From positions 1 to 39,756 of the IMG/VR virus record IMGVR_UViG_3300050006_000850: DNA of 39,756 bases; one strand, given 5' to 3'. The notes beneath the pieces were generated by a model. The model saw nothing but the letters and a program-made list of their open reading frames with translations. It was not told the DNA's origin and ran no database searches. The stretch is from a virus. This document shows positions 9,149-20,295 of the stretch, one piece after another. A program made the position numbers and the translations under genes. The number at the start of each line of letters is the position of its first letter. Within the stretch, counting starts at the first letter, position 1.

Positions 9149-9646
9149 TCACTTGTGCGGCGGGTGTCTCCAACCGCAGATTGGACAGATGGGCACGGCG
9201 TGGATACCCTTACCATCCCTCACGAGCTTCAGTCCTGTCTCTCGAGAATGGGCGCTGTGTGTAAGCACGGTAAGGTTCTCCAGGCGGTTGTCCAACGTGT
9301 CACTGTTCTTGTGGTGGACATGCTCGCCTTGTGCCAACTTCCGCCCGAGATGCTGCTCCATCAAGAGTCGGTGCTCGTAGGCCCACCGCTTCTGCCCAGG
9401 AATCTTGACTTGTGCATACTTGAGGTACCCGGAGATGGTGACGACCCTGCGGCTACCGACAGGCTTGGTGCGGGTCTTCTGCGCCCTCCGGAGGCCGGCC
9501 TGCTGCCCTGGCGTCTGTGGGCGTCGGTGCCCTGGGAGGCATTTGTTGTAGCCCTTGTGGCGCCCCTGCTTGTCGTAGCGGGGAGGCACGTGTGCCCCAC
9601 ACCCGCAGGCGCAGAGTTTTGTTACTGTCCGTGTGCCTTTTCGCAT
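9149..9646 (-). CDS. free-standing HNH homing endonuclease
   Basis: A 165-residue protein starting at ATG 9646. The N-terminus has a cysteine cluster (CACGCG...C) typical of a small zinc-binding lead. Residues 90-135 carry the HNH core with HVHHKNSDTLDNRLENL, where the HH and N residues form the beta-beta-alpha metal site. The C-terminus has CPICGW. Such endonucleases cut DNA at their own insertion site and spread by repair. The gene is opposite to all neighbours, is visibly less GC-rich, and lies exactly between two versions of the same N-terminus (9119 and 9683), so it looks recently inserted. No Shine-Dalgarno site is visible; a -10-like TATGCT lies six bases before the ATG. Confidence 0.9.
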   Translation of the reverse strand: MRKGTRTVTKLCACGCGAHVPPRYDKQGRHKGYNKCLPGHRRPQTPGQQAGLRRAQKTRTKPVGSRRVVTISGYLKYAQVKIPGQKRWAYEHRLLMEQHLGRKLAQGEHVHHKNSDTLDNRLENLTVLTHSAHSRETGLKLVRDGKGIHAVPICPICGWRHPPHK

Positions 9647-9682: not shown

Positions 9683-12600
9683 TTGCCTTTTTCCAGCGAG
9701 CGGCAGAGACGGAAGTTCTTCGCGATGGCGGCGCGCGGGGAGATCTCCAAGGAGACCCTGGAGGAGTGGCAGGATTCCACAGGGGACAAGGAGCTGCCCG
9801 AGAAGGTCGGGTCTGGCCTCCGGTCGGCCCTGCGCATAGTGTCCTCAGAGCCCGGCGCGGGCCTGCGCAACTTTGAGTTCCACCTTGGGGACAAACTCAT
9901 CGGTGTCATCACCACCAAGGGTGGGCGCGTCTACAAGTCCTGGTTGGACTCGTCCTTCCGTGGGATGGGGCTGGGGAAGAAGATGTACGGTGAGACCATG
10001 CGCCGGCTGCCTGGCCAGCAGATGCGCAGTGACACCCTCGTCACGGAGCCTGCCGCCAGGGTGTGGCAGGGCATGGCGGCGCGCCCCGGGTATACACTGA
10101 AGGCTAGCCCGGACATCACCCGCGGTGCAGTTGAACCTGTCGAGTACTACCTCCCCCTCAAGCCGGAGCTGAGCCCCCTTGAGAACATCAAGAGAGACAT
10201 GTGGTCGGCGCGTCTGCCCGAGGCCGCTGCCATCAAGACGGCCAAGGCGGTCAAGGTTGGGCCCCCACCCAAGCGCAACAGGAAGAAGTGGCCCTACCAG
10301 GGCTCCATCAACTTCCGCGGCCTCGACATCCTGGTGGAGAACAAGCGCGGCACCGACCGTGTATGGACCGACGAGAACAACAAGGAGACCGGCCGCACCA
10401 GGATGCACCACCACTACGGTGAGGTGCGCCGGACCCTCGGCCCGGACGGTGACCCGGTCGACGTGTTCGTTGGCCCCGACCTCGACGCCGACGTGGTGTA
10501 CATCGTCCACCAGATGAAGCGGCCGAAGTACGAGGAGTACGACGAGGACAAGTGCATGCTGGGCTTCCGCACCGCCAAGGAGGCGAAGGCGGCCTACCTC
10601 ATCCACTACGACAGCCCCAAGTTCTTCGGGTCGATGACGACCATGTCCTTCGAGGACTTCAAGAAGCTGCTGAAGCGTCGAGATGTGAGGGGCAAGAGGA
10701 TCACCGAAGCTCTCATCAAGGTGGGGGCGCAGCTGTTCTTCCCCAGCGCCAGAGGTGAAACCGTTTTGGGGGGTACCCCAGAAAACGCCCCTACTACGGG
10801 GTCCATTTTGGAAAGCCAACTGCACAAGTTGGGCGCGATGGAGAAGGAGGCCCTCAACGAGCGTCTGCTCGCTCGCGTCTTCGGGAGGGAGTTGGAGAAG
10901 CACGGGCTCAAAGCCCATGACGTGCTCCAGGAGATGATCCACGGGTACGGGAAGGTGCATGTCCCGAAGGCGCTGAGGGACCAGATCCTTATCTGGGAGA
11001 TGATAACAACCCCCATGACATCTGGTGGGGCCATCCACCCGTACGGACTCCCTATTGAGCGGGTTGCACAGCGACTGGGCCCGAAGCATCAGCGGACGCA
11101 CGCTTACGTTGCCCAGCGGGTGGCCAAAGATGAGGCACGGAGGACGGATGCAGCACGGAGGGTAGCCCTACTCGGAAGGCACAACCCCGGGGAGGCTGTC
11201 GTCGGGGGTGTCCCCAAGACTGTGACAGACCGGGGTGTCCCCATCCCCGGCCCCGGGTACGCTCCGGACGCGGTGGCCTTTAGGGGGAGGCCGGGGCCGG
11301 GCGAAATGTACCACAAGCCGGGCCCACGGTGGGTGTCTGCTCACCCTGACATCTCTGCCGGGTATGAAGCTAGCACCCGCCATGGACACTTGGCGCGCAG
11401 GCTCAGACGCCTGACTGCGTATGACACCCACAAGATGGAGATGGCAGGACCCTGGACTCCGCACACCGCTGATGTCCCCGGACTTCTAACAGGCCTACGG
11501 GCACGGTTGGGGGGTCTGCGCCAGAAAGCTGGGCGGTCGGGTTGGGGGGAGTCCCCAACCTACGAGCGCGTGGTCCCATCCGCCGAGTTGGAGGCGAGCC
11601 TCCTATCAGAGTACAAGCCGTTGGTTGGTGGAGGGTACCAACGCGTGCGGGGGCCTGCGGTTCTAGGCGAGTCCGGGGGGGCTAGGGCCTCGGCCCCGCC
11701 CAGCACAGGACCAAGATCTGGGGCATCTCTGGAGAGAAAGCTCCTTCTGGGGGGTGCGGCTACGTTAGGGGCGGGGGCGGTAGTGGCCCCATCTGTTGCC
11801 ATCCCTGTAGCCCTTGCCTCCAGGTCGTCGGAGAAGCGGGGGTCCATTTTGGGAAACCAACTGGACAAGTTGGGTGCCAAGGGCATCCCGAGCAAGAAGA
11901 AGCGAACTGACCCACCGAAGCTGACCAGCCCGCAGACGATGGAGTTCGTCACCCAGCTGCACCACGCGCACAGAGCGGGGTGCTTCCCGGATGGGGCTCC
12001 CATTACCATGCCCGATGGGCGGGTGCTGCCTATTGAGCAAGTACCTATTGGTGCCTCGGTCTGCACACGAGGGGGGGTTGCACGCGTAAATCGATTGTGG
12101 GATAATGGACCTGCCTCCCAGTGGGTGCTGATGACCGCGAGAGACCTGGAGGTGTGCTGCACACCCACTCACCCAGTGTGGGTGGTTGCCTGCGGATGGG
12201 CCCCCGCCCTGGCACTCAGTGACCTGCGTTGCTGGGCGGACGAAGTCGGAGAAGTCCATGTCCACGACGAAGATCTGTGCCGTGTGCGGGGGCGAATTCA
12301 CGACCTCCGACAAGAGGACAGTCACCTGTGGGCGGAGCTGTGGGACGCGCTTGGGGCACCGGCGGAGTGGCCAAAGGGTTATCCCCATCTCCCGGCAGGA
12401 GCGCACGAAGAGGGTCGAGCGCGCGGCGCAACAGCACAAGAAGCAGAGGCAGGCCAAGTGGCCACAGCTCGACGACGCCCACTGGCTGGAGGCGCAGTAC
12501 CGGGAGGGGCCCCTCTCGCTGGAGGAGATCGGGCAACTCGTAGGGTGCAGTCGCACAGCTGTGACTGCCGCGCTGCAGCGTCTGAAGATCCCAATGCGGA

Positions 12601-14872
12601 CGGCTGCGGAGAGCCGGGTGCTGGCCGGCCGGAAGATGCGTGGGGAGAGCCACTACAACTGGAAGGGAGGCATGTACAACGGGCGGCCGATGGGAGAGGG
12701 GGGCCTCTACAGCCGAGCGAAACTGAGGAAGGCTGTGGTCAAGAAGCGGGGGCACAAGTGCGAGTGGTGCAGGAAGACGCACAGGGTCGAGCTGCACCAT
12801 GTGGTCCCGTACAGGTTCTCAGCAGACAACAACGACGACAATCTCCTGCTTCTCTGCCCGAGCTGCCACGGGAAGGCGGACAAGCTGTTCCTCACGATGG
12901 CTGGGGAGTTCTTCGCATCCGCAGGCTCCCCCGGGCTGCCCGACGCCGTCTCGACCTTGAGGTCGAAGGTACGCACTGCTACTACGCAGGCGGCTTCTTA
13001 GTCCACAACAGCCACATCGACCTGCGGCTGGGAGACACCAAGTCGGGCATCGCCCACTCCTGGGCGCTGCCGAAGGTCATCGTGCCGCAGCCCGGGGAGA
13101 AGGTCCTGGCCGTGCAGCAGCCAGACCACACCATCCACTACATGGACTTCCGCGGGCTCATCGGCCGTGGGTACGGCGCGGGCACCGTGAAGGCCGTGGA
13201 CCGCCTGCAGACCGAGGTCCACCACTCCGAGCCCGGGAAGGTGAAGTTCCGGTTGGACCGCGGCCGGGGGGGCGAGGAGTTCATCCTGCGGCGCACGGGC
13301 AAGCACGACCAGAGCACGAAGTGGCTCCTGCAGAACGTCACCAAGGAGAAGACGGCGTTCTTCTCCGCTGTGAACAACCTGCCGCAGTCGTCGTGGAAGC
13401 ACCGCTGGATGGAGAAGCGGATGCGCGCGGGCAAGGACCTCGGGCTCCACACGAACGCAGAGGTCGGCAAGGCCTTCCACAGCAACCCGCACTGGTTCAG
13501 CGCGTTCCCCACCTACGTCCAGACCTACAAGGTGGCCTCTGCACACGAGAAGACGGCCGCCGGTGGTGCGCTGGGGGAGGCCCTGCTCAACACCCTCCGG
13601 ATGCCTCAGACCGCGAACACGTACCGCCGGGGTGCCCGCTCCTTCTCCAACTGGGTGCACCGTGGCCTGACCAAGGAGGTCCCCGGGACCCGGGGGATCC
13701 AGCTCCTGCCCAAGGAGACCGCAGACGCCTTCGCCGCCATCGGGGCCGACAGCCCCCTGGCCATCCCTGCGGCGGCGTCGGCAGGGGCCTCGTTCCCGGT
13801 CCCAGGCTCGGGGGAGCTGGCGACCTACCTGACCCTCCTGGCCGACAGGTACGCGACACGTGCCCTCGGGGGGACTCCGCCGGCGCGCACTACTGAGGCC
13901 ACGAAGCACCTGGAGGGGCTGGTGCGGAAGGCCGGGAAGAAGTGGATCGGTCAGAGCCCGGAGACTGCGGCGCCGGCTATGCGCACCGGGCTGGAGGGTG
14001 CGCCCCCCATCATCAGCAAGGTCGCGAGCGCCCTGGAGGAGCACGTCGCCTCCTCCAGCGAGCAGGTCCTGGAGGCGGTACGGGCACGGGTGAAGCTGGC
14101 GGCAGCGGGTCCCATCATCCCGACCCCCAGGCACCTCGAGATGGCCGAGGAGATTGTCGCAAACGACAGTCTGTCGCAGGACAACTGGCTGACCTTCCAA
14201 CAACGACTGCAACGGAGCCCTGGCTATCGTCAGGCCGTTCTGCTACACCCCCAAGCCGACGCCAAGCTGAAGAGGCATGTGCGGGCCATGGGCGCTCTGC
14301 ACGAAGGAACCCACCTAAAAAAGGTGCAGTCGCTGAGCGGCCCATCGACATACCAGCTGAAGCTGATGTCTTCTGGGCGCCTGGGCTGTACCTGCCCAGA
14401 CTGGCGGTACCGCAAGTCGCACGGTGGGGGCGACTGCAAGCACGTTCGGGCGTTCCGGTCGGCCTACGACGCCGGTGAGATGCCGCGTGGCTACAAGGGC
14501 TTGCAGAACGCCCTGAAGAAGGTCTCCTCCGTGGTCGCCGCGAAGGTCATCAAGCAGTCCCTCGACGATCTGCCGAGGATCTTACGCAGTGCCGTGAGGA
14601 ACTACCCCAACCAGACCGTGAGGTCGGCCGAGGTAGTCGCTCAGGCACCGCCGTGGGTCAAGGCGTTGCTCCCCAAGGGCTTCAAGCAGCAGCTCGGGAG
14701 TGCTGGGTGGACCGCAGACGTGATGACCAAGGGTGTGACCACCCCCAGCGAGCTGGTCGGCAAGAACATCCAGAAGGCGTTCGACAAGCGGTACGCAGAC
14801 TCCTGGCGCCAGGCACGCTCCGCGGGCCTCGACCTTCCGGCCAGCATCAAGCGGATGGGCTTCGGCAGCTAG
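9683..14872 (+). CDS. giant polyvalent protein, intein-containing precursor
   Basis: A 1,729-residue precursor, 1,386 after splicing. It starts at TTG 9683 with GGAG six bases upstream. Regions in order: MPFSSERQR start; GNAT-like fold at residues 53-155 (FRGMGLGKKMYGE); predicted inorganic-pyrophosphatase-like domain of phage polyvalent proteins at residues 195-335 (GDPVDVFVGPD, then DEDKCMLGF); a cassette at residues 374-720 containing YHKPGPRWVSAHPDISAGYE, weakly like ADP-ribosyltransferases; LigD 3'-phosphoesterase-like domain around the intein (LHHAHRAG joined to SHIDLRL...SWALPK, matching the family's H...HxDxR metal site); and a SWIM zinc finger near residue 1569 (CTCPDW...CKH). Polyvalent proteins are thought to be injected with phage DNA to counter host defence. 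The domain names are from motif recognition; the GNAT and ADP-ribosyl calls are weakest. Its stop overlaps the convergent RNase HII stop. Confidence 0.85.
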   Translation: MPFSSERQRRKFFAMAARGEISKETLEEWQDSTGDKELPEKVGSGLRSALRIVSSEPGAGLRNFEFHLGDKLIGVITTKGGRVYKSWLDSSFRGMGLGKKMYGETMRRLPGQQMRSDTLVTEPAARVWQGMAARPGYTLKASPDITRGAVEPVEYYLPLKPELSPLENIKRDMWSARLPEAAAIKTAKAVKVGPPPKRNRKKWPYQGSINFRGLDILVENKRGTDRVWTDENNKETGRTRMHHHYGEVRRTLGPDGDPVDVFVGPDLDADVVYIVHQMKRPKYEEYDEDKCMLGFRTAKEAKAAYLIHYDSPKFFGSMTTMSFEDFKKLLKRRDVRGKRITEALIKVGAQLFFPSARGETVLGGTPENAPTTGSILESQLHKLGAMEKEALNERLLARVFGRELEKHGLKAHDVLQEMIHGYGKVHVPKALRDQILIWEMITTPMTSGGAIHPYGLPIERVAQRLGPKHQRTHAYVAQRVAKDEARRTDAARRVALLGRHNPGEAVVGGVPKTVTDRGVPIPGPGYAPDAVAFRGRPGPGEMYHKPGPRWVSAHPDISAGYEASTRHGHLARRLRRLTAYDTHKMEMAGPWTPHTADVPGLLTGLRARLGGLRQKAGRSGWGESPTYERVVPSAELEASLLSEYKPLVGGGYQRVRGPAVLGESGGARASAPPSTGPRSGASLERKLLLGGAATLGAGAVVAPSVAIPVALASRSSEKRGSILGNQLDKLGAKGIPSKKKRTDPPKLTSPQTMEFVTQLHHAHRAGCFPDGAPITMPDGRVLPIEQVPIGASVCTRGGVARVNRLWDNGPASQWVLMTARDLEVCCTPTHPVWVVACGWAPALALSDLRCWADEVGEVHVHDEDLCRVRGRIHDLRQEDSHLWAELWDALGAPAEWPKGYPHLPAGAHEEGRARGATAQEAEAGQVATARRRPLAGGAVPGGAPLAGGDRATRRVQSHSCDCRAAASEDPNADGCGEPGAGRPEDAWGEPLQLEGRHVQRAADGRGGPLQPSETEEGCGQEAGAQVRVVQEDAQGRAAPCGPVQVLSRQQRRQSPASLPELPREGGQAVPHDGWGVLRIRRLPRAARRRLDLEVEGTHCYYAGGFLVHNSHIDLRLGDTKSGIAHSWALPKVIVPQPGEKVLAVQQPDHTIHYMDFRGLIGRGYGAGTVKAVDRLQTEVHHSEPGKVKFRLDRGRGGEEFILRRTGKHDQSTKWLLQNVTKEKTAFFSAVNNLPQSSWKHRWMEKRMRAGKDLGLHTNAEVGKAFHSNPHWFSAFPTYVQTYKVASAHEKTAAGGALGEALLNTLRMPQTANTYRRGARSFSNWVHRGLTKEVPGTRGIQLLPKETADAFAAIGADSPLAIPAAASAGASFPVPGSGELATYLTLLADRYATRALGGTPPARTTEATKHLEGLVRKAGKKWIGQSPETAAPAMRTGLEGAPPIISKVASALEEHVASSSEQVLEAVRARVKLAAAGPIIPTPRHLEMAEEIVANDSLSQDNWLTFQQRLQRSPGYRQAVLLHPQADAKLKRHVRAMGALHEGTHLKKVQSLSGPSTYQLKLMSSGRLGCTCPDWRYRKSHGGGDCKHVRAFRSAYDAGEMPRGYKGLQNALKKVSSVVAAKVIKQSLDDLPRILRSAVRNYPNQTVRSAEVVAQAPPWVKALLPKGFKQQLGSAGWTADVMTKGVTTPSELVGKNIQKAFDKRYADSWRQARSAGLDLPASIKRMGFGS
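10802..10836 (+). repeat. direct repeat copy A (35 bp) at a cassette boundary
   Basis: 35 bases starting TCCATTTTGG, encoding part of GSILESQLHKLGA. It matches copy B at 31 of 35 positions. A hairpin-like CGTTTT...AAAACG element (10762-10787) lies just before it. Confidence 0.8.
11843..11877 (+). repeat. direct repeat copy B (35 bp) at a cassette boundary
   Basis: Second copy, encoding part of GSILGNQLDKLGA. It lies exactly 1,041 bases (347 codons) after copy A, so the intervening segment is in frame. Confidence 0.8.
11981..13009 (+). mobile_element. intein in the LigD-like phosphoesterase domain
   Basis: A 343-residue intein at precursor residues 767-1109. Block A begins with Cys (CFPDGAPITMPDG). 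Block B is CCTPTHPVW with the TxxH motif. The C-terminal block is YYAGGFLVHN followed by the nucleophile Ser of the extein. It interrupts the phosphoesterase active-site motif between LHHAHRAG and SHIDLRL, a typical conserved-site insertion. In the intein frame the middle (about residues 90-320) is compositionally odd and matches no endonuclease, because the endonuclease is encoded there in the +1 frame (12258-13001). All splicing residues look intact. Confidence 0.9.
12258..13001 (+). CDS. HNH endonuclease encoded out of frame inside the intein
   Basis: A 247-residue protein in the +1 frame relative to the surrounding precursor. ATG 12258 has its own Shine-Dalgarno site (GGAG, six bases upstream). 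Features in order: an N-terminal zinc-binding cluster (CAVC...C...SC); a helix-turn-helix near residues 90-115 (EEIGQLVGCSRTAVTAALQR); a HYNWKGG motif typical of HNH homing enzymes; and the HNH core CEWC...VELHHVVP...DNLLLLCPSCHGK near residues 170-215. Its stop at 12999-13001 overlaps the intein C-terminal block. It lies where in-frame homing domains usually sit in inteins, and would spread the intein by cutting intein-less alleles. It is expressed either as a separate internal gene or not at all. Confidence 0.88.
   Translation: MSTTKICAVCGGEFTTSDKRTVTCGRSCGTRLGHRRSGQRVIPISRQERTKRVERAAQQHKKQRQAKWPQLDDAHWLEAQYREGPLSLEEIGQLVGCSRTAVTAALQRLKIPMRTAAESRVLAGRKMRGESHYNWKGGMYNGRPMGEGGLYSRAKLRKAVVKKRGHKCEWCRKTHRVELHHVVPYRFSADNNDDNLLLLCPSCHGKADKLFLTMAGEFFASAGSPGLPDAVSTLRSKVRTATTQAAS
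14164..14176. promoter_or_regulatory. 13-bp palindrome site 2, CGACAGTCTGTCG
   Basis: Perfect dyad with central T within the polyvalent gene (codons for N-D-S-L-S). Confidence 0.7.
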
Positions 14873-17304: not shown

Positions 17305-20295
17305 TTGCGTCAGTCACTGCTGCAATCCTCGGGGCTGGCTCGAGTTCGGGTGAATCGGGACGAGCAGCTCGCCCGGCGAGAAGAGGTACATGACCCGGAG
17401 TCCCTGGTCTATGCTCGCCCCTCGGACTTCACCGAGTACGCGATTCGGGTAGTAGACCAGAAGGCCAACAAGGTCGTTCCATTCTCGTATGCGGAGCGCC
17501 GCTACCTCCGGAGAATCTACGACACCGGGGCCAAGCGCGTCTTGCTGAAGTGTGGCCGGCAGGTCGAGAAATGCCTGAACGCGCGTTCAGTAGTCTCTCT
17601 CGCGTCGGGTGCCCCAAAGGGGCTGAAGGACGTTCAGGTCGGTGACACGGTTGTGGGGTTGGGCGACAACACGGCCCACACCGCGGCAGGAGTGGTCACC
17701 TGGAAGTCGGAGGAGCTACGGAAGCCCTGCGTTCGCCTCCGAACACGTCAGGGCCACGAGACCATCATCGCACTGACGCACCCGATGCGAACGTGGGGGG
17801 CGTGGACCGAGGGGGGTGCGCTGAGAGTCAAGTCCCGCCTTGCTGTGGCCCGGCAGGTCGGTGATTTCACGGGTGATGGTGGCCCACACGACCACGAGAT
17901 CGTGCTGCTGGCCTACATGATCGCCGAGGGGTACACACCCGACGCACCTCACTGCTCGTTCACTCAGAACGAGGAAGGGCCGGTGCTCGGGGAGTTCCTT
18001 GACATCGTGCACGACAGGTTGGGGGACCAGTACGACCCACACGAACGGAAACGGGCACTGTGGCAGCTACGGTTCGGCAAGGATTCTCAGCTGCAGGGCC
18101 TTGTCGAGAAGTGGGGGCTCCGTGGGCTCCTCTCCCCCACCAAGTTCGTCCCAGACTTCGTCTACAGCCTCGACCAGTACCAGACGGCCCTCTTCCTCAA
18201 CCGCCTCTGGGCCGGGGATGGGCACTGCAGCTTGCAGGGCTCCTCGTACCACCTCGAGTACGACACTGTCTCCAAGCGCCTCGCGCGAGATGTGCAGCGG
18301 CTACTCTGGAAGTTCGGCATCCCTACCAGCTTCCGTTCTTGGAAGCCCAAACTCTACGAGGGTACCGACAAGTGGGCCCACAAGCTACGCGTCGAGACCC
18401 AGGAGGGCGCACGCAGGTTCATCGAGGAGATCGGAGCGCTGGGCAAGACCGAGCACCTCCCACTGTTGGGGGTGGATGCGAACAGCAACCGAGACACGTA
18501 CCCGATGGAGATCGCCGAGGACATCAAGGCAATCCACAGGTCGCGCGCTGGGTATCACCGACGGGGGCGGTACGTGCCCCAGCCATCGCTCCGCTCGGTG
18601 GGTCTCCGAGAGAAGCCCAAGTACCCCCTGACCCGGGAGAAGTTGAAGGAGTACGTCGACTTCTTCAACTCGGACGTCGGGTTCGACCGGCCGCTAGTCA
18701 ACCAGCTGCGTGCCCACCTGGACACTGACCTCTTCTGGGACGAGATCGTCGAGATTGAGGACGTCGGGGAGCAGCCCTGCTACGACATCACCGTCGAGGG
18801 CACCGACAGCTTCATCGCCGACGGATTCGTGACGCACAACAGCACCATGCTCGGCAACCGGATGCTGTCGATGTGCTGCCTCAATACGGGCTTCAAGTGC
18901 CTGTATGTGTCCCCCACCCACTCCCAGACGAATACGTTCAGCCGCGACAGACTGTCGGACCCCATCACGCTGTCCCCGATTCTCTCGTCCTGGACGACGA
19001 CCAAGCTCACCGACAACATCCACCTCAAAAAGTTTATCAACCACAGCAACATCACCCTGCGCTACGCGTACCACAACGCTGACCGTACCCGCGGTATCCC
19101 CTCGGACATGGTCACCATCGACGAGCTGCAGGACATCCTGATGACCAACATCCCGGTCATCGAGGAGACGGCATCGCACTCCCCTTGGGGCCTCTTCGTC
19201 TACTCGGGTACGCCGAAGTCGACCGACAACCCCATGGAGCACTACTGGGTCTACTACTCGCGGCAGAACGAGTGGATGGTCCCCTGCGAGCACCACGGTA
19301 CCCCCAAGCGGCCAGCCAGCTGGCACTGGAACATCCTGGGCGAACGCAACATTGGCCTGCACGGGCCCATCTGCGACAAGTGCGGAGAGACCATCGCCCC
19401 GATGCACCCGGCCGCGCACTGGCGGTCGCTCAACCCCAAGCCCGACATCCCCGAGCCCTTCGAGGGGTTCCGCATCCCGCAGCTGATGGTCCCCTGGATT
19501 GGCTGGACCGACATCCTGCAGAAGCAGAAGTTCTACGGGCGCGCCCAGTTCTACAACGAGGTCCTGGGCCTGAGCTACGACTCGGGGACACGGCCCATCA
19601 CACGCAGGCACCTCCGGGCGATCTGCAACCCCGAGCTGTCGATGGCGCGGGACGGCCTGGAGAAGATCCAGAACAGCCTGGGTGGCGCCCGGGTCTTCAT
19701 GGGCATCGACTGGACGGGCGGCAGCAACAAGAGTTTCACGGTGGCTACCCTGGGTGCCTACCTCCCGGGCAAGCGGGTGTTCTCCTTCTTCTACGTGCAC
19801 CGCTTCGAGGGCCAGGAGTCCGAGCCCGAGACCCAGCTGGAGCTCCTCAAGCAGCTCATCCGGAGCTGGCACGTGGACGTCGTGGGGGTGGACTTCGGCG
19901 GTGGCTACTGGCCCAACAACGAGCTCATCAAGGCCTTTGGCCCGCACCGGGTCATCAAGTGGCAGTACAGCCAGCCCAGCGAGAAGTGGCGGTGGGACGC
20001 CGGCCAGCAGCGGTACATGGTGAACCGCACGGCCGTGATGACGGACTTCTTCAACGCCCTGAAGCACTCCGACCGCCAGATCTTCGAGTTCCCACAGTGG
20101 GAACAGTTCCGGGAGCCCTACGCCACGGACTTCACCAACATCTTCAGCGAGTACAACGAGTCCCTCCGCCTGGACGAGTACAAGCTGGCCCCGGAGATGA
20201 CGGACGATACCTGCCACTCCGCCCTCCTGTGCCTGCTGGCCTCCACCCTCCGCATCCCCCGACTCGACATCTTCGCAGTGCAGCAGGAAACATAG
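17305..20295 (+). CDS. terL: terminase large subunit, intein-containing precursor
   Basis: A 996-residue precursor, 573 after splicing. It starts at TTG 17305 with AAGGAGG four bases upstream. The product is the DNA-packaging motor: an ATPase that drives DNA into proheads and a nuclease that cuts the concatemer. Walker A is CGRQVEK joined to ST (residues 83-89 plus the extein after the intein), with Glu where most P-loops have Gly. Walker B is MVTIDELQD near residue 602, and a coupling motif SGTP follows. A zinc-ribbon-like pair C..H/CDKC lies near residues 660-700. The RuvC-like nuclease has its acidic residues in GIDWTGG (about 800), VGVDFGGG (about 861) and DDTCH (about 967). The stop is followed by a strong hairpin. 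Palindrome site 3 lies just after the intein. Confidence 0.95.
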   Translation: MRQSLLQSSGLARVRVNRDEQLARREEVHDPESLVYARPSDFTEYAIRVVDQKANKVVPFSYAERRYLRRIYDTGAKRVLLKCGRQVEKCLNARSVVSLASGAPKGLKDVQVGDTVVGLGDNTAHTAAGVVTWKSEELRKPCVRLRTRQGHETIIALTHPMRTWGAWTEGGALRVKSRLAVARQVGDFTGDGGPHDHEIVLLAYMIAEGYTPDAPHCSFTQNEEGPVLGEFLDIVHDRLGDQYDPHERKRALWQLRFGKDSQLQGLVEKWGLRGLLSPTKFVPDFVYSLDQYQTALFLNRLWAGDGHCSLQGSSYHLEYDTVSKRLARDVQRLLWKFGIPTSFRSWKPKLYEGTDKWAHKLRVETQEGARRFIEEIGALGKTEHLPLLGVDANSNRDTYPMEIAEDIKAIHRSRAGYHRRGRYVPQPSLRSVGLREKPKYPLTREKLKEYVDFFNSDVGFDRPLVNQLRAHLDTDLFWDEIVEIEDVGEQPCYDITVEGTDSFIADGFVTHNSTMLGNRMLSMCCLNTGFKCLYVSPTHSQTNTFSRDRLSDPITLSPILSSWTTTKLTDNIHLKKFINHSNITLRYAYHNADRTRGIPSDMVTIDELQDILMTNIPVIEETASHSPWGLFVYSGTPKSTDNPMEHYWVYYSRQNEWMVPCEHHGTPKRPASWHWNILGERNIGLHGPICDKCGETIAPMHPAAHWRSLNPKPDIPEPFEGFRIPQLMVPWIGWTDILQKQKFYGRAQFYNEVLGLSYDSGTRPITRRHLRAICNPELSMARDGLEKIQNSLGGARVFMGIDWTGGSNKSFTVATLGAYLPGKRVFSFFYVHRFEGQESEPETQLELLKQLIRSWHVDVVGVDFGGGYWPNNELIKAFGPHRVIKWQYSQPSEKWRWDAGQQRYMVNRTAVMTDFFNALKHSDRQIFEFPQWEQFREPYATDFTNIFSEYNESLRLDEYKLAPEMTDDTCHSALLCLLASTLRIPRLDIFAVQQET
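17572..18840 (+). mobile_element. LAGLIDADG intein in terminase Walker A
   Basis: A 423-residue intein. It begins with Cys 90 of the precursor (CLNARSVVSLASG), block B is IALTHPMRT, and it ends FIADGFVTHN before Ser. Two LAGLIDADG (DOD) blocks are visible: LLAYMIAEGY near intein residue 112 and FLNRLWAGDGHC near 208, giving a monomeric homing endonuclease. The intein splits the ATP-binding motif GRQVEK/ST, so the terminase is inactive until splicing. All splice residues look intact. Confidence 0.95.
18945..18957. promoter_or_regulatory. 13-bp palindrome site 3, CGACAGACTGTCG
   Basis: Perfect dyad with central A in the terminase extein (codons for R-D-R-L-S). Confidence 0.7.

Follow-up and report, generated by a model that had tools for sequence, protein, structure and literature searches.

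Conventional homing-endonuclease inteins, such as those of the PI-SceI type, carry an in-frame LAGLIDADG or HNH endonuclease. An intein in a phage polyprotein gene, in which an HNH gene occupies a different reading frame from the splicing domain, raises the question of whether an intein can harbour a complete endonuclease gene out of frame, and how both products would then be made. This intein was identified in a virus record of 39,756 bases, the whole of which is referred to here as the window; the record is a metagenomic fragment, an origin that counts against a nested-gene reading.

The intein and its host gene

The host gene is one long ORF (Table 1) encoding an InPase-like domain, a LigD 3'-phosphoesterase domain (PF13298) interrupted by the intein, and a SWIM-like zinc motif. 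The junctions read HHAHRAG/CFPDG...GGFLVHN/SHIDLRL, and the intein cuts the LigD-type 3'-phosphoesterase motif. The homologous site has no insert in two related viral contigs, L003 and L004 (90% and 87% identity across the phosphoesterase domain), where it reads HHAHKAG/PHIDLRI. The +1 residue is Pro at these empty sites and Ser in the window. Since Pro at +1 would not support splicing, the intein-bearing allele brings its own Ser, as has already been noted for other inserts (PMC11855218).

Elsewhere in the host ORF, positions 10901-11860 have a low GC3 (0.70) and differ in L003 and L004, marking a module that has been exchanged in the stretch separating the InPase domain from the phosphoesterase domain. 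The polyprotein (also L004, 1456-7260) repeats a linker motif, ENAPTTGxILExQLxKLGA...ALNERLL, between modules. Module order between these linkers varies among relatives, and the linkers are possibly processing or packaging tags. Directly upstream, on the minus strand and opposite to the intein-bearing gene, is a free-standing HNH_3 gene (9149-9646; PF13392, 47.7 bits).

Table 1. Features of the intein locus (window coordinates).
Feature	Position	Strand	Description
Host ORF, frame 0	9683..14872	+	1729 codons, phage polyprotein
InPase-like domain of host polyprotein	10298-10675	+	PF18823
N-extein end	11927..11980	+	...SPQTMEFVTQLHHAHRAG, first half of phosphoesterase active-site motif
Intein	11981..13009	+	343 aa, frame 0, C1...HN/S; starts CFPDGAPI
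Hint N-half	11981..12256	+	C1; AF2 pLDDT 86-97 over residues 1-80
Block B, TPTH	12161-12172	+	Intein residues 61-64
Shine-Dalgarno-like GGAG	12248..12251	+	6 nt 5' of HNH ATG
HNH endonuclease gene	12258..13001	+	+1 frame, 247 aa, ATG 12258
Frame-0 reading of HNH gene	12259..12904	+	Stop-free, predicted disordered linker of ~215 residues in precursor
Zinc cluster C7/C10/C24/C28	12276-12341	+	N-terminal, HNH ORF
HTH	12504-12587	+	HNH ORF
GESHYNWKGG motif (GExxxNWKGG)	12642-12671	+	HNH ORF
HNH	12759-12875	+	HNH ORF
Hint C-half, blocks F and G	12905..13009	+	DLEVEGTHCYYAGGFLVHN; TIGR01443 above its cut-off
DLEVEG	12953-12970	+	Intein frame 0
GGFLVHN/S (block G)	12989-13012	+	Intein frame 0
HNH stop TAG	12999-13001	+	Inside block G, arises from TTA GTC (Leu-Val)
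C-extein start	13010..13340	+	SHIDLRL... of phosphoesterase domain

The original prediction of intact splicing blocks in frame 0 was borne out. The residues of a class-1 intein are all present (C1, TxxH as TPTH, the H-N end and +1 Ser), as is DLEVEG, and C1, H64 and N343 are invariant when the window intein is aligned with 71 other nested-nuclease inteins. Among intein profiles, the C-terminal model TIGR01443 scores 18.3-22.3 bits against a cut-off of 15.6, whereas the N-terminal TIGR01445 (12.9 against 24.5 bits) and PF14890 both fall below theirs. An AF2 model of frame 0, built with an alignment of 71 related inteins, has confident Hint halves (residues 1-80 and 310-343, pLDDT 78-97), and the middle ~215-220 residues are predicted to be disordered. 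The PDB matches of this model in Foldseek are intein structures, with 3ifj at the top (E 9e-5).

An HNH gene in the +1 frame

HNH homology in this region is confined to the +1 frame, where the ORF matches PF01844 (28.2 bits, cut-off 21.4) and PHROG_8446 (E 2e-25, residues 43-212). The HNH motif and zinc CxxC residues are intact (H180, H181, N195 and H204; C168/C171 and C200/C203). Codon usage follows the +1 frame from about 12260 to 12900 and frame 0 on either side. These results confirm the predicted +1-frame gene with its own GGAG and ATG; of 45-bp stretches drawn at random from the window, 1.6% contain a suitably spaced Shine-Dalgarno (SD) sequence and ATG in the right frame. The AF2 model of the HNH protein is of low confidence (mean pLDDT 59) and gave no PDB match under E 0.001.

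The gene begins 92 codons downstream of Cys1 and lies between the Hint halves. Its HNH core ends at ~12893 and the Hint C-half begins at ~12905, the final 35 residues of the HNH ORF being the Hint C-half read out of frame. As predicted, the HNH stop overlaps the C-terminal intein block. It depends on a TTA codon; among the 833 Leu codons of the examined window genes, 4 are TTA. Frame 0 is indeed open through the whole HNH gene, although the by-product, put at about 230 residues in the original prediction, comes to about 215-220.

Free-standing homologues of the window HNH are HCTV-5 gp111 (247 aa), which shares its HTH-HNH part, and a Halorubrum protein (L025), which shares its zinc cluster. 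Searches for relatives of the window HNH alone confirmed none in genome contigs and gave only weak matches in phages and plasmids. The window HNH lineage consists of one sequence. A two-sequence profile run against genome contigs found the free-standing zinc-cluster HNH of L025 and another HNH-domain ORF (L024). Its remaining matches (L023, L026-L031) are helicases with an in-frame HNH.

GC3 is 0.86 in the HNH gene, against 0.63 and 0.69 for the two halves of the intein, and the host region downstream has 0.885; the contrast between the HNH gene and the intein halves suits separate origins. Together with the SD and ATG, the zinc cluster, the architecture of free-standing type and the position of the gene, this supports the proposal that a mini-intein was colonised by a free-standing HNH gene.

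It is very unlikely that the element is decaying, such that the intein or the nuclease is defunct and the overlap is a relic. The single copy of the window HNH lineage and the weak N-terminal intein HMM would fit decay, but the splicing and HNH residues are all intact, neither frame has a stop, and the downstream host domain is ~90% identical to its relatives.

Out-of-frame nucleases in other phages

A first scan of viral contigs with a DNA pattern for block G (YAGGxLVHN) gave 15 loci, 8 of which have an out-of-frame endonuclease ORF inside the intein. Two unrelated families were prominent: DUF559/Vsr-like nucleases, in the +1 frame of helicase inteins, and HNH_3 nucleases with zinc fingers, in the +2 frame of terminase inteins. 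In a second scan, each family was used as a protein query against viral contigs, ignoring context, and the best 80 of 298 DUF559 relatives and the best 80 of at least 562 HNH_3 relatives were fetched. Among these best 80 per family, the nuclease lies out of frame in an open host ORF at 133 of the 160 loci (78 DUF559 and 55 HNH_3). All 45 non-redundant DUF559 cases have a +1 offset, and 34 of the 35 for HNH_3 an offset of +2; intein C-blocks, called in this class by pattern and profile rather than structure, are present in 43 of the 45 and 33 of the 35. In a set of 72 frame-0 inteins (window included), the NCBIfam intein C-terminal model matches 46 and the N-terminal model 41 (E<=0.01), and the +1/+2 ORFs match DUF559 in 41 and HNH_3 in 30. 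The DUF559 query had no match in plasmids.

The architecture is also found in annotated phage records: in each of the 10 checked, an unbroken annotated CDS harbours the nuclease out of frame, with a downstream intein C-block (N-block motif recognised in 9). These are Vibrio phages CP-T1, 1.194.O, 1.088.O, 159E43-1b and 103E44.1, Corynebacterium phage phi673, Pseudomonas phage MR14, Tetrasphaera phage TJE1, Acinetobacter phage Highwayman and Rhodobacteraceae phage LS06-2018-MD07. The names given to the CDSs are helicase, terminase, or uninformative. Thus, the arrangement does occur in other phages, and the premise that known inteins carry their endonuclease in frame fails in the databases searched: for the two families sampled, out-of-frame nesting is usual.

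The recurrence bears on an alternative raised in the original prediction, that a pair of compensating indels, whether true mutations or artefacts of assembly, moved the HNH domain of an ordinary intein out of frame. In its favour, the length of the element is divisible by three and the N- and C-terminal Hint halves are read in the same frame. However, both indels must hit two short linkers of ~45 bp, and the HNH gene has an SD, an ATG and a zinc-cluster N-terminus like its free-standing relatives. The frame offset is constant across whole families, no in-frame member was found among the loci examined, and isolated phages with complete, annotated genomes have the same architecture, which speaks against assembly error. 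One exception favours the indel explanation: L211 has a +1 nuclease among +2 relatives, and the nuclease frame can therefore differ within one intein clade. On balance, compensating indels are highly improbable as the origin of the window arrangement, and a nested gene is preferred. In L211 (2354-3061) it is an HNH_3 nuclease that lies in +1, in an intein that groups with the +2 inteins of L194 and L199; the nuclease frame can change, or the nuclease can re-enter.

A search of viral contigs with the N-half of the window intein found no intein relatives. Thirteen matches to a DNA pattern of the N-junction were all judged by eye to be due to chance. In a Hint tree, where DUF559 and HNH_3 inteins form separate groups, the window is on a long branch near the DUF559 side; the support is only 0.756, and no claim of descent is therefore made for the window intein.

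HNH_3 nuclease matches mostly begin 86-96 codons after Cys1, which, like the start in the window, is consistent with the canonical endonuclease insertion site. In helicase inteins the nuclease begins earlier and thus overlaps the Hint N-half. How endonucleases enter inteins, and why always at one site, is a question discussed elsewhere (PMC6801210).

Within the window, a stop-free frame 0 across the HNH core has a probability of 0.009 by chance (synonymous shuffling), a value weakened by the general depletion of stops in the same relative frame of other genes in this GC-rich genome (79 observed, 107 expected). Taken alone, the openness of frame 0 in the window is suggestive; once the comparative set is added, it is decisive. 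Across the nucleases of 80 non-redundant cases, drawn from loci with an open host frame (the 78 of 80 and 55 of 80 found by nuclease similarity alone), there are 0 frame-0 stops, against ~447 expected from synonymous shuffling of the nuclease codons. By family the figures are 0 against 363 (45 DUF559 cases) and 0 against 83.5 (35 HNH_3 cases). The third frame matches expectation, with 614 stops against 594 for DUF559 and 638 against 673 for HNH_3.

Beyond the absence of stops, constraint on frame 0 differs between the families. In five HNH_3 pairs, identity is 0.472 in frame 0, 0.474 in the third frame and 0.732 in the nuclease; as frame-0 residues drift as fast as those of the third frame, the linker looks like a stop-free by-product. 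In DUF559 pairs, which are not independent, frame 0 (0.658) shows some constraint relative to the third frame (0.584), as is to be expected of a nuclease gene that overlaps the Hint N-half. Block G contains the nuclease stop in 27 of 42 +1 inteins, in addition to the window. In many +1 inteins (L060-L139), the Leu-Val of block G is spelled TTA/CTA GTN, which supplies the TAG of the overlapping nuclease.

An SD is strongly enriched at the first in-frame nuclease ATG (22/41 against a background of 78/535, p 3.5e-8; 19/30 against 79/423, p 3.5e-7). This weighs against the alternative that ribosomes shift out of frame 0 and produce the nuclease fused to the Hint N-half, with no internal initiation. 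Such frameshifting would fit the ~40% of loci that have no recognisable SD at the first ATG. However, in most loci the open stretch of the nuclease frame begins just ahead of the nuclease domain, and in the window GGAG is suitably placed before the ATG; frameshifting is thus unlikely, and internal initiation is favoured.

Relation to known elements and proposed mechanism

The window element shares with conventional inteins the Hint domain, insertion in a catalytic motif and a nuclease between the Hint halves. It differs in that the nuclease is a separate +1-frame gene rather than a domain of the intein polypeptide. In the same phage, the terminase gene (17305-20292) has a conventional in-frame intein from about 17560 with LAGLIDADG-like motifs (LAYMIAEG, FLNRLWAGDG). 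One phage thus holds both intein architectures; the LAGLIDADG-type terminase intein is also present in L003. Group I introns with internal homing endonuclease ORFs likewise have an independent nuclease gene inside a self-removing element, but the window element would be removed at the protein level, so the carrier frame must stay open through the nuclease gene.

Fractured genes, reportedly described by Dassa et al. in NAR in 2009, are said to be phage genes, with DNA-metabolism hosts, that combine split inteins with a free-standing Vsr-like or other endonuclease. The endonuclease gene reportedly has its own start between the intein halves, and Vsr-related nucleases are said to be common. Phage setting, type of host gene, the own-start endonuclease gene between intein halves and the frequency of Vsr-related nucleases are all features of the present elements. 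By contrast, host gene and intein are broken into two ORFs joined by trans splicing in fractured genes, while here both are unbroken because the other frame stays open. Together with the non-splicing ShiLan element, fractured split-intein genes (Dassa et al. 2009) are the nearest known systems.

The host frame is not open at 25 HNH_3 loci; at 18 of these the nuclease is surrounded by intein N- and/or C-blocks that lie in different frames, making them split inteins. For example, in the annotated TerL of Vibrio phage 1.238.A (L220, 1-3374), the N-half ends in a stop and is followed by a zinc-finger HNH-like ORF and a separate C-half ORF. HNH_3 nucleases thus occur in both unbroken and split inteins, and the overlapping and fractured forms share a nuclease family. 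This could suggest that the window too is a fractured gene, its intein halves being separate proteins that splice in trans with the endonuclease between them, but neither the window nor any of the 133 overlap loci has a break in the host ORF, which makes a fractured gene extremely unlikely here.

The ShiLan domain and the Pacc40 insertion are out-of-frame HNH inserts in phage DNA methylases (Arsenault, Gosselin, Gogarten 2025, PMC11855218). The authors proposed that the insert remains in the protein, and that there is no SD (PMC11855218). Like the window element, ShiLan has its HNH in another frame, an open host frame, precise empty sites and Pro at the uninvaded site, with the same Pro to Ser/Thr change at +1 (PMC11855218). 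This likeness would suit a non-splicing insertion of ShiLan type; a self-splicing RNA intron is a related alternative. ShiLan, however, has no intein splicing motifs, whereas the window element has complete blocks, a predicted Hint fold and an SD, and a search of 11700-13300 for an intron ribozyme gave no Rfam match at E<=1. The probability of either alternative is very small.

No description of an intein with an out-of-frame endonuclease was found in full-text literature searches; a 2025 preprint on Actinobacteriophage inteins with non-canonical architecture (bioRxiv 2025.01.02.630785) could anticipate part of this work.

The window very probably contains a class-1 intein in a phage LigD-type phosphoesterase, with a complete out-of-frame endonuclease gene, spliced in cis and with the nuclease made by internal initiation. 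Computational support for this comes from the anatomy, the empty site, nuclease homology, the predicted Hint fold, recurrence, and class-wide selection against frame-0 stops and enrichment of SD sequences; from these we infer splicing, internal initiation, DNA cleavage and homing. The nested HNH gene would occupy the position where in-frame endonuclease domains normally sit. Ribosomes starting at the host gene would read frame 0 across the whole element, and the two Hint halves would fold around the disordered by-product linker, excise the intein in cis and restore the host protein. Other ribosomes would initiate internally, at the +1-frame GGAG/ATG, to produce a free HNH endonuclease, ending at the TAG hidden in block G. 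The enzyme would cleave host-gene copies lacking the intein, into which repair would copy the complete element. The nuclease sequence would be under selection and so, in frame 0, would the Hint blocks and the absence of stops between them.

Nested-gene inteins probably represent a widespread, ancient and largely unrecognised class in phages, in which at least three nuclease types have entered Hint domains (DUF559/Vsr-like in +1, HNH_3 in +2 and HTH-HNH in +1). They might be an intermediate among free endonuclease genes, in-frame endonuclease inteins and fractured split inteins. In the nested arrangement, nuclease and splicing domain would be separate proteins although their DNA is linked. They would also be long overlapping genes with a clear selective reason, as all that is asked of one frame is to remain open. 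The nuclease escapes annotation pipelines because the gene around it is called helicase or terminase; the endonuclease content of phages is thus undercounted, and some inteins regarded as endonuclease-free may not be so.
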